This document shows, in pieces, positions 5,653 through 30,544 of a DNA stretch of 33,941 bases. Under the pieces are notes generated by a model. That model was not told where the DNA came from. It made no database searches and saw only the letters and a program-made list of their open reading frames with translations. The stretch covers positions 1 through 33,941 of the forward strand of contig JAOADB010000007.1 in assembly GCA_026417535.1 (NCBI GenBank). Reading direction: 5' to 3'. The position numbers were made by a program, and so were the translations under genes. Numbering within the stretch: the first letter of the stretch is position 1; every line of letters starts with the position of its first letter. This DNA is from Caldilineales bacterium (lineage in GTDB: Bacteria; Chloroflexota; Anaerolineae; J102).

Positions 5653-6069
5653 TCATTCCTCGTCGGGATAGCGGGTGGGCACGCTGGAGGCGCTGTTGAC
5701 CAGGTCCAGCGTGGCCTTGACCGAACGCATGATCTTGGCCAGATTGCCCTTGAGCTTGAGCTGGCGGCTGACGAGGGCGCGGATGGGGTCGAGCTGCTTC
5801 TTGAAGATTTTGCGGTAGGTGTCAATGCTGCCCTCGATGACGAATTCGGGCTGTTTGTCGCCCTCCCCTGTCACCAGATAGGCCTCGCGGCACTGGCCGT
5901 GCCACAGGTCGAGATAGAATTTGACCGGTTCCTTCAGGCTGCCTTTCGGCTCGACGATGAAGTAAAAATCACCTTCCCAGGTGGCGGCCGAGACCTTGTA
6001 GGCCTCGTTGTTGTTGAGCGCTTCTTTGAACGCGGCAACCCATTCGGCCGAGGGGAACAGATACGCCAT
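5653..6069 (-). CDS. SCP2 sterol-binding-domain-like protein
   Basis: MAYLFPSAEWVAAFKEALNNNEAYKVSAATWEGDFYFIVEP...; SCP2-like layout; start moved from 6459 to ATG 6069; 3-bp gap to the ADH gene. Confidence 0.7.
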   Translation of the reverse strand: MAYLFPSAEWVAAFKEALNNNEAYKVSAATWEGDFYFIVEPKGSLKEPVKFYLDLWHGQCREAYLVTGEGDKQPEFVIEGSIDTYRKIFKKQLDPIRALVSRQLKLKGNLAKIMRSVKATLDLVNSASSVPTRYPDEE

Positions 6070-6168
6070 GAGTGACCTCCAGGAGTGTAAGCGGAGCGAG
6101 CGGGATCGACAGGCGGGACGCCCGAGGCCGACGATGGCCGGGCGGATTATGACGCGTTGCGTCGTGAG

Positions 6169-6199
6169 ATTATAGCACAGCCGTCGGCCAAAGGCGCAA
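6169..6199 (-). promoter_or_regulatory. Putative extended -10 promoter for the SCP2-ADH-AOR operon
   Basis: Minus strand TTGCGC-N19-TATAAT preceded by TGC (TGCTATAAT). Confidence 0.5.
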
Positions 6200-6388
6200 A
6201 AGGGGAGGCAGAGAAGGGCCGTGGTGAAGGCGCTTTCCTGCCCTTGGCGTCGTGGGTGACGGCTGCGGCCGTCGTCTTGGCCGGGTGGTGCAGCCGGCCG
6301 GAAGGTGCTGCGGGCGAACCGCGTCGTCGGGCGATGGGGGTTTAGGCGATGTTCACGCCGCGGATGGAAGCAGTCGCCACGCGCGCCA

Positions 6389-6433
6389 CAAAGGGGGCGG
6401 CCGGGCGGCTCCGCCGCCCGGCCGCCCCCTTTG
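6389..6433. repeat. Perfect 21-bp GC-rich hairpin, core of a two-copy foldback element (copy 1)
   Basis: caaagggggcggccgggcggc-tcc-gccgcccggccgccccctttg; flanks shared with 26541-26772 (tcgccacgcg upstream; cgcgcg..cggccaaa.tcc downstream). Confidence 0.85.
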
Positions 6434-6740
6434 ACGCCGCGCGAACGGCCAAATCCCACATTCGGCGCCGGGCCGCGTTATCATCGGCAACGTCATCACA
6501 CCCCTCTCGTCCCGACACCCACCCCGCCGATGCGCGCCTCGTTACTATTCCCGCGTTTCGTCTGTGCTACGGCCTGCGTCGTACTTCGCTGGCGCCATTG
6601 GAAGGGGAAGAACCCTTTTCGGCCTTACCTGGAGGGCGGTCATCCCGGCGAATAGCCGTTCCGGCGGTGGAACTTTTTGGCCTCTTTCTTCGTCTATTCC
6701 GGTGAATCTCACATCCCGAACATGGACAAGGAGGCAAGAC

Positions 6741-7925
6741 ATGTTCCGACGACGTGTATTTTCCCTCGCGCTTGCCTCCCTGTTAAGCACCGCAGTCGTG
6801 TTGATGCTGTGGATCACGCCGGGTACTGCGCAGACGGCTGACACAGGGTGGCAGGGCGAGTATTTCGACAATCCCTGGCTGGTCGGAGCGCCGGTTCTGA
6901 CCCGCACCGATGCGTTCATTGACTTCCACTGGGGCACCGGCGCGCCGCATGACCGCATCCCGGTGGATCGCTTCTCGGTGCGCTGGAGCCGCGTTGCCCG
7001 CTTCGAGGCCGGCCGCTATCGCTTCATCGTCGAGGTGGACGACGGCGTGCGCCTGTTCCTGGACGGTCAGCTCATCCTCGATCGCTGGCACGATCAGGCC
7101 CCGACCACCTACACCGTCGAACGCGAGTTGACGGCCGGCGACCATGCCCTGCGCATGGAGTACTACGAGAACACCGGTTGGGCCGTGGCCCGGCTGCGCT
7201 GGGAGCGGGTACAGGTTTCGGTGCCGCCCACGGCCACCTGGCGGGGCGAGTACTTCGCCAACCCCTGGCTCGCCGGCACGCCCACCCTGGTGCGTGAGGA
7301 CCCCGACATCCAGTTCGCCTGGGGTCAGGGTTCGCCCGACCCGCAAATCCCGGCCGACCGCTTCTCGGTGCGCTGGACACGGGCCGTCCGCTTCGAGCAG
7401 GGCCGCTATCGCTTCACCACCCTGACCGATGACGGCGTCCGGCTCTACATTGATGGCCAGCTGGTCATTGACCGTTGGGTGGATATGGCCCCCACCACGC
7501 ACACGGCCGTCCTGGACCTCACCGAAGGCGTCCACACCATCCGCATGGAGTACTACGAGAACGCCGGCAACGCCACGGCCAAACTCTCGTGGGAAAAGAT
7601 TCGGGTGCCGCCGCCTGTGGGCAACATCATTACCTGCGTGCGCCCGCGCAACTCCTGGATCAAAATCTACCGCTGGGACGGCGAGCGCTGGGTGGACATC
7701 AACCCCCGCGGTTGGGGCGCCATCTCACCCAGCGGTTATCTGAAGATTGACGGCCTGCCGGTGGACCTCGCGCGGTACGGCGGACAGGGCCATCCCTATC
7801 GGGTGGAACTGTGGGCTAACCACACCCTCATCCGCTCTGTCGGCAACACGTCCCGCGGAGAACCCGAATTCCGTGTGCGGGCCTTTGCCGATAACTACAC
7901 GCCCTGGGGCTGCCCAGCGCCGTGA
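6741..7925 (+). CDS. Secreted protein with two tandem PA14 domains
   Basis: RBS aaggagg upstream of ATG 6741; signal peptide; duplicated W(Q/R)GEYF.NPWL.G...RFSVRW...GRYRF...DDGVRL..DGQL..DRW...MEYYEN module. Confidence 0.93.
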   Translation: MFRRRVFSLALASLLSTAVVLMLWITPGTAQTADTGWQGEYFDNPWLVGAPVLTRTDAFIDFHWGTGAPHDRIPVDRFSVRWSRVARFEAGRYRFIVEVDDGVRLFLDGQLILDRWHDQAPTTYTVERELTAGDHALRMEYYENTGWAVARLRWERVQVSVPPTATWRGEYFANPWLAGTPTLVREDPDIQFAWGQGSPDPQIPADRFSVRWTRAVRFEQGRYRFTTLTDDGVRLYIDGQLVIDRWVDMAPTTHTAVLDLTEGVHTIRMEYYENAGNATAKLSWEKIRVPPPVGNIITCVRPRNSWIKIYRWDGERWVDINPRGWGAISPSGYLKIDGLPVDLARYGGQGHPYRVELWANHTLIRSVGNTSRGEPEFRVRAFADNYTPWGCPAP

Positions 7926-7928
7926 AAC

Positions 7929-7963
7929 GGACGATGGACGGTGGACGATAGACGATGGATGGA
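7929..7963 (+). repeat. Period-7 intergenic array (ggacgat-ggacggt-ggacgat-agacgat-ggatgga)
   Basis: Five consecutive 7-mers starting 3 bp after the PA14 gene stop. Confidence 0.8.
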
Positions 7964-8068: not shown

Positions 8069-8097
8069 CGTAACGCAAGATGCCATCTTGCGTTACG
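8069..8097. terminator. Perfect palindrome between convergent genes; bidirectional-terminator-like hairpin
   Basis: cgtaacgcaagatg-c-catcttgcgttacg; lies between PA14 (+) and polyprenyl synthase (-). No clear U-tract. Confidence 0.5.
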
Positions 8098-14020: not shown

Positions 14021-14042
14021 GGACAGGCGAAGGCGTAGGAAG

Positions 14043-14090
14043 AGGACGAAAGACGGAGGACGGACGACGAAAAGCTTCGTCTTTCGTCCT
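14043..14090 (+). repeat. Period-7 array forming an imperfect hairpin (ggacgaa-agacgga-ggacgga-cgacgaa ... ttcgtctttcgtcct)
   Basis: 7-mer periodicity plus inverted right arm; downstream of secF. Confidence 0.75.
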
Positions 14091-14128
14091 CCCTTTTCGC
14101 TACTGGCGGGGATGATCATGCGGCGTGT

Positions 14129-16603: not shown

Positions 16604-16662
16604 GACGAAGGACGAAAGACGGCGGACGGAGAGGTTTCGTCTTCCGTCGTTCGTCCTTCGTC
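16604..16662. terminator. Period-7 array forming a 24-bp near-perfect hairpin between convergent genes
   Basis: gacgaaggacgaaagacggcggac (16604-16627) pairs with gtcttccgtcgttcgtccttcgtc (16639-16662), 22/24. Confidence 0.75.
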
Positions 16663-23341: not shown

Positions 23342-23379
23342 GACGAAGGACGAAAAAATTCCCTCCTTCGTCTTTCGTC
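23342..23379. repeat. GACGAAG-family hairpin upstream of rpsP
   Basis: gacgaaggacgaa (23342-23354) pairs with ttcgtctttcgtc (23367-23379), 12/13. Confidence 0.7.
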
Positions 23380-24707: not shown

Positions 24708-25355
24708 ATGAGGTCCGTATGGCTCATACCTCTGGCAGCGATTCTGGTTCTGTTCGGCAGTCTGACTTTGCCCGTTCCGGCCCAGGCAGCGCCGGGTTCT
24801 GGTGGCACGGTCCATATCGTGCGCCGGGGCGAAACCCTTACCCAAATCGCCCGGCGCTATGGCGTTTCGGTGCGCGCTCTGGCGGCGGCCAACGGCATCG
24901 CCAACATCAATCGGATTTACGTGGGCCAGCGACTCATCATCCCGGCCAGGGGCGGACAGGCCGCCGCACCGGCAGCACCCTCGGTTTCGGCGCCGGCCGG
25001 CGCTCGGCGCTGGATCGAGATTGACCTCTCGCGCCAGCGGCTGATCGCCCACGAAGGCGATCGGATCGTGCTGAATGTGCCCGTCAGCACCGGATTGCGC
25101 AACACGCCCACGCCCGTGGGCACATTTCGCATCCGCAGCAAGGTGCGCAGCCAGACCATGTCAGGCCCTGGCTATCGGCTGCCCAACGTGCAGTGGGTCA
25201 TGTACTTCGTGGGCAACTACGCCATCCACGGCACGTACTGGCACAACAACTTCGGCCGACCCATGAGCCACGGCTGTGTGAACCTGCGCAATGCCGATGC
25301 GCGATTCCTTTACCATTGGGCCGGCTACGGCACACCGGTCGTCATTCATCGCTAA
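24708..25355 (+). CDS. LysM-domain L,D-transpeptidase (YkuD family)
   Basis: Signal peptide; Lys[30 protein letters not shown]; catalytic [23 protein letters not shown]. Confidence 0.95.
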
Positions 25356-26356
25356 GGCGTTGCCGAGTGAACGGCGCGGCGACGACCTCGGCCGGTATTG
25401 TCTTCGACCTCGGTTACGGTTTTGTCCAAGAGCCGCCGAAAGCGGGGATCGAGCATGACCGTGCGGCGCAGACCCTCCTCCAGTGAGACCTGCGGTTGGT
25501 AATCGAGGAGGGCAGCGGCTTTCTCGAGATCGGCCAGGAGCCGGTTGACCCCGCCGCTTTGTTGTTCGTTGTAAAGCACGCGGGCGGTGCGGCCCGTGAC
25601 CTTTTCAACCAACCGGATCAGCTCCTCGACGCTGGTCTCACGACCGCTGCCGACGTTGATGACCTGGCGGTCTACCCCCTCGCGCAGGCCGGCTTCGATG
25701 AGGGCGTTCACGACGTCGTCAATGTACACGTAGTCGCGCGTCTGCTTGCCGCTGCCGAAGACGACGAAGGTGCCGCCGTTGAGGACCTGATGGATGAGCT
25801 GTGGCACCACGGGCGGGTAGGCCGGCGGCAAGGCCTGGCCAGGGCCATAGGCGTTGAAAATCCGCAAGGCCACCGTTTCGATGCCGTAATGCACGCCCAA
25901 GGTGAACATGTAGTGCTCGGCGGCGAACTTGCTAACGGCATACGGGGTCAGCAGCTGAGGCACCACCGTCTCGTCCACGGGTTGGCGTTTCTGGTCGCCG
26001 TAAATGGTACCCGACGAGGCCAAAACCACGCGACGAATTCCGGTGGCGCGCATGGCCTCCATGAGGGTAACGGTGCCGCCGACGTTGACGTCGTTGTAAT
26101 CGCGCGGGTAGAGGATGGATTGGGGCAAGGAGACCCGCGCCGCCAGGTGATAGACGCAGTCAATGCCGTGCAGTTGGGTCCACAGCTTGGGCAGATCGCG
26201 CACGTCCCCGCGCTGGAAGAGGACGCGCTCGTCCAAAGCGTCCGGGTCGCCGGCACTGAGGTCGTCAATGACGCGGACGTGATGGCCCAATTCAACCAGG
26301 CGTTTGGCCAGATGGCGACCGATGAATCCGGCTCCTCCGGTGATGAGAAAGTTCAT
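25352..26356 (-). CDS. NAD-dependent epimerase (UDP-glucose 4-epimerase-like)
   Basis: [45 protein letters not shown]; start moved to 26356. Confidence 0.9.
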
Positions 26357-26540: not shown

Positions 26541-26772
26541 GGGCGTTTCCTCGCGGTTGTCGGCGCCATGCGATGGGGGTACCGGCGGCGCGGCGCGTGC
26601 CTGGCGAAGGGGATCGCCACGCGACGCATTAGGGGCGGCCGGGCGGCGGAGCCGCCCGGCCGCCCCCTATTACCGCGCGTTCGGCCAAAATCCATGTCCG
26701 GCGCCTCACTTCGCCGGAACCCGCCCCGCAAGCCGCGCGCCATCGCGGCCGCACCCACCGCGCGAAACGCCC
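26541..26772. repeat. Large imperfect foldback element (copy 2 of the GC-rich hairpin element)
   Basis: Core ggggcggccgggcggc-gga-gccgcccggccgcccc (26632-26666); outer inverted arms gggcgtttc (26541-26549) / gaaacgccc (26764-26772); flanks shared with copy 1. Confidence 0.75.
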
Positions 26773-26804: not shown

Positions 26805-27305
26805 TCACTCCACCACCGCCGCCAGCGACTGGATGTGCATATCGTGCAGGCGGCTGCGGATGGTCTCCGCGGCCTTTTGCATCATCACATAGCCGAAATG
26901 ACAGTCCTCGGCGAAGGCCTTCAACAGCCCGGCGGCGTCGAACACCACGACTCGGCACGGCGTCAGCGCCTTGGCCCCGGCCGTGGCCGTGTGCGGCGGC
27001 ACCAGCGCCGACCAGCCGAACACCTCGCCCGGCCCCACCGTGCTGACCACCACATCCCGCGTCTTCAGCACACCGGTCAGCTGGCCCGAGACCGGCTGCT
27101 CGACCCGCGTATCGGGCAGCTCGATGATCACGCCCACGTTGCCCTGCACCAGCAGGTAAAACCGGTCCAGTCGCTCGCCTTCGTGGAAAAAGACATGGCC
27201 GGCCTCGACCGTCTCCTCTTCGGCCAGCCCGGCCAGGGTGACGATATTCTCATAGCTCAGCCCGGCAAAAAAGGCGTAGCGCCGCAACAGCTCGGGTGAA
27301 ACCAT
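26805..27305 (-). CDS. Cyclic nucleotide-binding (CAP_ED) domain protein without HTH
   Basis: MVSPELLRRYAFFAGLSYENIVTLAGLAEEETVEAGHVFFHEGERLDRFYLLVQGNVGV...GPGEVFGWSALV; ends without a DNA-binding domain. Confidence 0.88.
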   Translation of the reverse strand: MVSPELLRRYAFFAGLSYENIVTLAGLAEEETVEAGHVFFHEGERLDRFYLLVQGNVGVIIELPDTRVEQPVSGQLTGVLKTRDVVVSTVGPGEVFGWSALVPPHTATAGAKALTPCRVVVFDAAGLLKAFAEDCHFGYVMMQKAAETIRSRLHDMHIQSLAAVVE

Positions 27306-27356
27306 AAACACAACTCCTCTCAAGCAACAGATGCGCAGAAGCCATGCGCTTCGGTC

Positions 27357-27427
27357 TTGCCACGAATTCCACGAATGACACGAAGGTTTTTTTCTCCTAT
27401 TCGTAAAATTCGTGCAATTCGTGGCAA
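27357..27427. repeat. 28-bp-arm inverted repeat built from CACGAAT units
   Basis: ttgccacgaattccacgaatgacacgaa (27357-27384) vs ttcgtaaaattcgtgcaattcgtggcaa (27400-27427), 24/28 paired. Confidence 0.85.
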
Positions 27428-27433
27428 AAACGC

Positions 27434-29461: not shown

Positions 29462-29517
29462 CCGGTGATCGGTGACCGCCTACCAGTAACCAGTAACCAG
29501 TAACCAGTTACCAGTAA
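29462..29517 (+). repeat. Period-7 array (ccggtga-tcggtga-ccgccta-ccagtaa x3-ccagtta-ccagtaa) between mvhG and mvhA
   Basis: Eight consecutive 7-mers; the periodicity continues into the mvhG stop codon. Confidence 0.9.
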
Positions 29518-29521
29518 CTAA

Positions 29522-30544
29522 CTACTGGTTATCGGCCACCCTGGCTCGATGCAGCAGCGAGTGCGCCATGCTGAAGTAGTAGAACAGCCCGGCCGGGTCC
29601 GGAATGGTGCTGACGGCGTCTTGGACCCGTCGCGCCAGCTCCTCCTCGTTGTCGCCCGGCTTGCCGGTCACGTCAATCACCGAGGCCAGGGCGGTGAGGA
29701 TCCGAGCGCCCTGGTCTACCACGCCGGGCAGAGGGCCATAGCAGCCGCGGCAGCCCATGCCCACCCGCGGGCACAACGCGCCGCATCCGCACACCGTGGC
29801 CGGCCCTAGGCACACCAGCCCCTGCTCCAGCAGGCACAGGCCCGGCTTGGGCACGATTTCATACGGCCGGTAGAAGCGGGGGATGGTCTTCTCGTGCCGC
29901 GCCAGCGGGCACTCCTCGCATACGGCCACCTGGCCGGCGCCCAGGATCGTCCCCTTGGGCGGCAGAGGCGCGCCCTCCGTCAGCGCCGCCACCACGGTCT
30001 GCAACACCGCCCAGATCTGGTGCGACTCCGGCGGGCAGCCGGGCACGTAGTAGTCCACGTCCACCACCTGGTCCAGGGTTTTGACCGTGTGGTAAAAGGC
30101 CGGCAGCGTCAGCTCCCCTTCGGGTGCAGGCGTGGTCGTCTGCGGCAACACGCCGCTGGGGTTGTCCAGCGAAGGGTTGTCGAGATAGACCGTGCGTAGG
30201 ACGGCCTGCCGCGAGGTCAGGTTGGCCAGGGCCGGGATGCACCCCTCGTAAGCGCACGAGCCGAAGGCCACCAGGATTTTCGACTTGCGCCGCAGCAGGT
30301 GGGCCATGTGCTCGTTCTCCGACGAGCGGATGGCGCCGTTGAACAGACAGAGGTCAATGTAGCCGTCGGGATAGCCCTCGACGTCGCTCACCTTGAAGTC
30401 GGCGATACAAGGGAAGAAAGCCAGGTCGAAGACCTGGTCCACGGTCAGGATGTGCTCGCCGATGTTGAGGGTGGCGATCTCACAACCGCCGCATGAGGCG
30501 GCCCAGTACATGGCCAGCTTGGGTTTGGCGCCGTTGGTGCTCAT
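29522..30544 (-). CDS. mvhG: [NiFe] hydrogenase small subunit (MvhG-like)
   Basis: MYWAASCGGCEIATLNI, GSCAYEGCIP, VPGCPPESHQIW, Cys-rich C-terminus CGCGALCPRVGMGCRGCYGPLPG. Confidence 0.93.
   Translation of the reverse strand: MSTNGAKPKLAMYWAASCGGCEIATLNIGEHILTVDQVFDLAFFPCIADFKVSDVEGYPDGYIDLCLFNGAIRSSENEHMAHLLRRKSKILVAFGSCAYEGCIPALANLTSRQAVLRTVYLDNPSLDNPSGVLPQTTTPAPEGELTLPAFYHTVKTLDQVVDVDYYVPGCPPESHQIWAVLQTVVAALTEGAPLPPKGTILGAGQVAVCEECPLARHEKTIPRFYRPYEIVPKPGLCLLEQGLVCLGPATVCGCGALCPRVGMGCRGCYGPLPGVVDQGARILTALASVIDVTGKPGDNEEELARRVQDAVSTIPDPAGLFYYFSMAHSLLHRARVADNQ

Follow-up and report, generated by a model that had tools for sequence, protein, structure and literature searches.

The DNA analysed here, a 33,941-nucleotide stretch referred to below as the window (contig C449 of a 3.6-Mb Anaerolineae MAG, 482 contigs, 79% complete), harbors two copies of a GC-rich foldback element. 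With a probability of roughly 0.6, we assign this element to a low-copy (~17 seen) intergenic MITE-like foldback repeat of one Anaerolineae genome, its stem being maintained by template switching. In its best reading, it looks like a small foldback repeat of the MITE-like, ERIC/RU-like kind, not like a terminator and not like a RAYT-driven REP. What was an oddity of two copies is now a defined repeat family, whose appeal lies in a clean, countable template-switch signature.

Two copies of the element in the window

A first-pass annotation had described a perfect 21-bp stem with a 3-nt loop between the divergent SCP2 and PA14 genes; both the structure and its setting were confirmed, at 6389-6433. 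The features of this copy (copy 1), of the second copy and of the neighboring promoter are the following.

6325..6479, + strand: copy 1, whole element (A arm, core, B arm); ends approximate, taken from the median extent of pairwise homology
6331..6341, + strand: copy 1, outer block gcgatgggggt (family consensus GNGGGT)
6374..6383, + strand: copy 1, A-arm motif TCGCCACGCG, near-invariant in 13 copies
6389..6433, no strand: copy 1, core with perfect 21-bp stem and 3-nt loop TCC at 6410-6412
6438..6456, + strand: copy 1, B-arm motif CGCGCGAACGGCCAAATCC
6464..6469, + strand: copy 1, B-side outer block GGCGCC
26563..26716, + strand: copy 2, whole element; ends approximate
26570..26580, + strand: copy 2, outer block gcgatgggggt
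26614..26623, + strand: copy 2, A-arm motif TCGCCACGCG
26632..26666, no strand: copy 2, core with perfect 16-bp stem and loop GGA at 26648-26650
26674..26693, + strand: copy 2, B-arm motif CGCGCGTTCGGCCAAAATCC
6147..6178, - strand: conserved SCP2-operon promoter region, TATAAT at 6174-6169, between copy 1 and SCP2

The stem arms of copy 1 (6389-6409 and 6413-6433) are 21 nt each and 100% complementary, those of copy 2 span 26632-26647 and 26651-26666, and a 35-nt core is common to both. The coordinates also bear out the annotated sharing of core and both flanks between the copies, with an inverted loop (TCC versus GGA) although the arms share orientation: the blocks cgcgcg-N2-cggccaaa (6438-6453 and 26674-26689) and ggcgcc (6464-6469 and 26700-26705) stand at matching distances. 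Folded as DNA, region 6330-6475 is considerably more stable than dinucleotide shuffles (z = -4.9), none of 200 shuffles being equally stable.

Copy 1 lies between the divergently oriented SCP2 (5653-6069, - strand) and PA14 (6804-7925, + strand) genes, whereas the neighbors of copy 2, an epimerase gene (25352-26356) and a cNMP-binding gene (26805-27305), are both on the - strand and hence not divergent. The SCP2-operon promoter, ~150 bp downstream of copy 1, is a short stretch of conservation in relatives G001 and G004, and homology with G002 stops there. As this promoter sits between copy 1 and the gene, copy 1 is not part of the SCP2 5' UTR.

Copy number and distribution

The exact 35-nt core pattern was found at 10 places in the genome and the reversed-pattern control at none, so the core is not a product of chance. 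DNA similarity and a covariance model added three diverged full copies (C322, C368, C87), and four further copies are cut at contig ends (C438, C125, C15, C425), yielding ~17 copies, 13 of them full and the rest partial, in 3.6 Mb. The possibility raised in the annotation that only two copies exist, with flanks alike at background level, therefore falls away, flank homology exceeding shuffled controls. Since assembly breaks at the hairpin, the true copy number is probably above ~17; such elements break short-read assemblies, and several of the copies seen lie at contig ends. Ranked by length, the top nine perfect hairpins in a 379-kb genome sample that includes the window count six members of this family.

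Beyond this genome, and look-alikes aside, 99 relatives, two same-genus genomes among them, gave no match to the element at E<=0.001. Same-genus scores obtained with the covariance model are at noise level, and the element is absent from the rest of the family too. The exact core pattern has no match in GTDB genome contigs or in IMG/VR viral contigs, phage and plasmid records do not contain the whole element, no Rfam family matches it at the gathering threshold, and a search of the literature on Chloroflexi and Anaerolineae repeats found nothing corresponding to it. Two copies (L003 1364-1791 and L004 660-1089) are alike over ~430 bp around the core at 74% identity and have in common an extra ~90-bp module (L004 554-639), which in L004 stands on both sides of the core; they thus form a larger composite.

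Polar arms, ends and loops

All full copies have a polarity, the core being flanked by an A arm (GGATCGCCACGCG) and, opposite it, by a B arm (CGCGTACGGCCAAATCC). Read outward from the core, the A arm is GCGCGTGGCGATCC and the B arm GCGCGTACGGCCAAATCC, each being followed by GGCGCC-like and then ACCC-like blocks. A-B similarity exceeds that of shuffled sequence (score 17.6 versus 10.4), the arms forming weakly similar inverted repeats whose exact ends are fuzzy. Across copies, A-A and B-B similarities are higher than A-B similarity, and A and B of one copy are no more alike than A and B of different copies, from which it follows that the two arms are fixed, distinct ends. A search for within-copy homogenization of the outer arms did not reveal any.

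Counted from the loop, pairwise homology has a median reach of 85 nt into the A side and of 67 nt into the B side. Judged by shuffled-flank controls (beyond 45-110 nt), it is genuine over ~80 nt or more, for some pairs over at least 110 nt, and exceeds the controls across at least ~150 bp in total. With the A arm on the left, loops read TCC, TTC or TTT in 10 copies and are inverted (GGA, AAG, GGA) in three; 11 of the 13 belong to the GAA/GGA class or its complements. Although the core is identical in 10/13 copies, similarity between arms is only about 65-75%, and none of the copies therefore appears recent.

Placement between genes

None of the 13 full copies falls in a predicted gene, genes being called by a simple codon-usage finder rather than taken from curated annotation. 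With a coding fraction of 86.7% in the 379-kb sample, the chance of finding 13/13 copies in intergenic DNA is ~4e-12 if positions are independent. Ten copies have both neighbors, placing five in divergent, four in tandem and one in a convergent gap, and long gaps (>=400 bp) in the sample are by length 44% divergent, 42% tandem and 14% convergent. Gap types of the copies thus track the length of long gaps, as expected if the element settles where free space allows; this pattern fits insertion and does not fit terminators. In four of the five divergent cases, the copy is near the middle of the gap. Genes adjoining the copies have no common function but unrelated housekeeping roles, and a reading of the family as a regulon was rejected on this ground.

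Relation to mobile foldback repeats

The family is short, non-coding, dispersed and multi-copy (13 complete and further partial copies in 3.6 Mb), as are MITEs. Such an element would have spread as a non-autonomous MITE-like unit, moved in trans by a transposase; transposition is the most likely origin of the dispersal, judging by the polar ends and by analogy with an element of another Anaerolineae MAG, JAFGEI (below). For the element of the window, whose outer ends are fuzzy, searches returned no target-site duplication, empty site or transposase. Comparison of the copy 1 and copy 2 regions with same-genus and same-family genomes gave no empty sites, the neighboring genes not being syntenic, and when all copies were compared with ~0.8 Mb sampled from one same-genus genome, flanking genes were found, but never both neighbors together. 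Y1_Tnp (PF01797) has no match in the 79%-complete genome; the same search was positive in E. coli and others. Copy 1 probably has no essential role between SCP2 and PA14 and is at most a weak insulator or a site able to extrude as a hairpin.

A looser pattern (AAGGGGG..GGCGGC-NNN-GCCGCC..CCCCCTT) retrieved 69 loci. Three Anaerolineae MAGs account for most of them, and each has a stem sequence and arms of its own; as the pattern itself selects for such a core, these loci count as look-alikes rather than as established homologues. In JAFGEI, the core forms the center of an element ~150 bp long that has the terminal repeats TYGACAATGGCAC..GTGCCATTGTCRA, and terminal-repeat matches number 126 in 3.9 Mb. 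Of 18 copies that could be measured, 14 are flanked at their two ends by exact 4-bp NTAN direct repeats, whereas random re-pairing of flanks gives 1.85 on average and 8 at most. Terminal repeats and exact duplications together identify the JAFGEI element as a MITE. Despite dozens of copies of this element, no Y1 transposase was found in the JAFGEI genome, and among the 100 terminal repeats listed out of 126, none were paired at a distance that would accommodate a transposase gene of an autonomous partner.

The element of the window shares with the JAFGEI MITE two polar, non-identical arms, a central GC stem, a GAA/TTC loop, intergenic location and similar length, although the search pattern itself accounts for part of the resemblance between the cores. 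What sets the JAFGEI element apart, as far as seen, is its distinct terminal inverted repeats (TYGACAATGGCACATTTCA) and its 4-bp NTAN duplications. It likewise resembles ERIC and RU (IRU) of enterobacteria and other MITE-like palindromes, which are non-coding, ~100-170 bp long, intergenic, dispersed, imperfectly palindromic over their whole length and for which no linked transposase is found. Unlike these, it has an unrelated sequence as far as seen, a central perfect GC stem with a 3-nt loop, ~17 copies and fuzzy ends at which target duplication was not found. We consider it an unlikely generalization that Anaerolineae genomes independently carry mobile foldback families built to one plan, with polar arms, a self-symmetrising GC stem and a GNA-type 3-nt loop, in which the single-stranded DNA hairpin would itself be the functional part, recognized in transposition or replication and kept perfect by template switching.

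Look-alike hairpins were also observed elsewhere. G021, another Anaerolineae genome, contains a GGTTTGGGTGGGCGGC-AAA-GCCGCCCACCCAAACC hairpin (L201 and L211, ~1530-1575) and a mirrored variant, GGTTTGTGGGTGGGCGGC-AAA-..., the change again being present in both arms. Bacteroidales-type genomes (L085, L088, L092, L097, L140) have single hairpins of the same core layout, which sit inside repeat arms of the gtcattnngag.../...ctcnnaatgac type.

Proposed template switching at stem and loop

Following insertion, the replication fork would switch template between the arms, which would keep the core hairpin perfect and flip the 3-nt loop back and forth. Template switching between short inverted repeats leads to homogenization of arms and inversion of the spacer, including TTC-GAA flips (PMC8604942), and is known to maintain hairpins (PMC8794818). 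Both arm homogenization and spacer inversion are seen here, the statistics on mirrored mutations coming mostly from JAFGEI. Among 37 parsed JAFGEI copies, 28 have perfect stems, and the same variant occurs in both arms in 11 cases, where random pairing predicts 1.1 (maximum 6 in 20,000 shuffles). With the arms as reference, JAFGEI loops read GAA/AAA in 27 cases and TTC/TTT in 20. In the genome of the window, the two loop orientations stand at 10:3, and two mirrored indels (C87, C438) are found versus two unmirrored substitutions (C322, C368). Template switching best accounts for the mirrored changes and the inverted loops, and we infer it to be the source of both the perfect stem and the flipping loop. 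Quasipalindrome template-switch hot spots share these two hallmarks, mutations mirrored between arms and a 3-nt spacer that inverts; such hot spots were described at single loci (E. coli, yeast, RNA genes), whereas here the hallmarks appear across a whole repeat family.

The inverted loop, which the annotation had read as a sign of mobility, is not evidence of it, because template switching inverts spacers (PMC8604942) and the flips accompany mirrored stem mutations. The caution applies to dispersed hairpins in general, and extends to mirrored (compensatory) stem changes, which on their own are no evidence of a selected RNA: template switching makes both. As switching homogenizes the arms within one copy, it does not explain identity of the core between copies, and the identical core of 10 copies may be due to selection acting on it or to gene conversion from one copy to another. 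In JAFGEI-like families with dozens of copies, rates of arm correction and loop flipping would become measurable in natural genomes.

Alternative explanations

A hairpin with an A tract before and a T tract after it could stop RNA polymerase from both sides as a bidirectional intrinsic terminator or insulator. The strong GC stem would suit this role (6330-6475 folds as RNA at -94 kcal/mol, z -4.9 versus dinucleotide shuffles), as would the short A/T tracts that flank some copies, with 5 T in 8 nt in a few, and the location near the gap middle in divergent regions. However, half of the placeable copies (5/10) are found in divergent gaps, where no transcript needs terminating, tandem copies are 150-200 nt away from the upstream stop codon rather than just downstream of it, and the U-rich tract amounts to 0-5 T in 8 nt, most copies carrying just 0-4 after the core. 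Moreover, a terminator scan does not call the element, and conserved polar arms beyond the stem would be left unexplained, rendering this explanation unlikely; the annotation's view that this is no chance terminator gains support from the dispersed family and its conserved polar flanks. Transcription of these gaps into a structured RNA or riboregulator is highly improbable. In 9/13 copies the better RNA fold is that of the B-left strand, with the arms pairing partly around the core, but there is no Rfam family, consensus folding yields almost no covariation term, and copy 1 is upstream of the conserved SCP2 promoter, outside its transcript. A chromosomal site under selection, either bound by a nucleoid or segregation protein or relieving supercoiling as a cruciform, would explain an identical core in 10/13 copies with arms 65-75% alike, and the location of copies close to mid-gap in 4/5 divergent cases would agree with it. 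Distribution over gap types nevertheless follows gap length, absence from same-genus species would be unusual for an essential site, and neighboring genes share no function, which makes such a site distinctly unlikely.

The annotation had favored a mobile, MITE- or REP-like element. Its MITE part stands on the dispersed family and the polar, conserved flanks; its REP part, i.e., a REP/BIME that a RAYT (Y1, IS200/IS605-like) transposase would mobilize by way of its single-stranded hairpin, we regard as very unlikely. The element is intergenic, palindromic and polar-ended, other hairpin repeats with shared spacers occur in the gaps of the genome in a BIME-like mosaic, and 11/13 loops are GAA/GGA or complements. 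GAA/GGA-type loops form a class of very stable DNA mini-hairpin. On the other hand, Y1_Tnp, the partner proposed in the annotation, is found neither in the 79%-complete genome of the window nor in JAFGEI. Target-site duplications, which the annotation had suggested looking for, were found just in the similar JAFGEI element. REPs are defined as 20-40 bp palindromes with a GTAG or CGTC tag (PMC3733652), whereas here the stem is 16-21 bp in an element of ~150 bp and neither tag is seen at the stem foot of aligned copies. The element thus has in common with REP/BIME its extragenic palindromes in mosaic with others in the same gaps, but differs in its much longer stem and low copy number as well.

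Other hairpin repeats between genes

Quasi-palindromes abound between the genes of this genome: repeats, chiefly GGACGAAGGACGAACGACGG and GCAAGATGNCATCTTGC hairpins, are present in 101 of the 184 gaps sampled. In the 379-kb sample, GGACGAAGGACGAACGACGG hairpins have 95 matches, 91 of them intergenic, and GCAAGATGNCATCTTGC hairpins 46 (both strands counted), all intergenic. The B-arm motif CGGCCNAAATCC abuts GGACGAAGGACGAACGACGG hairpins at 10 sites, compared with 0.17 for letter-permuted motifs (maximum 4 in 150). As the gaps hold other hairpins and the B-arm motif adjoins one of them, the GC-rich element may be the rarest part of a hairpin mosaic, as in BIMEs.

Within the window, copies of the GGACGAAGGACGAACGACGG... 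quasi-palindrome occur at 14042-14091, 16604-16662 and 23342-23372, and the similar GGACGATGGACGATAGACGATGG repeats (7929-7960) have many matches in same-family genomes. A perfect hairpin at 8069-8097, CGTAACGCAAGATG-C-CATCTTGCGTTACG, is a member of the GCAAGATGNCATCTTGC family. An inverted repeat of the CACGAATT type lies between two genes at 27352-27432 and has many sites in same-genus and same-family genomes; CACGAATT-like runs also flank elements in JAFGEI. Finally, the inverted repeat TAACCAGTAACCAGTTAC/GTAACTAACTACTGGTTA is located at 29487-29531, and similar TAACCAGT repeats are present in other gaps of the genome.
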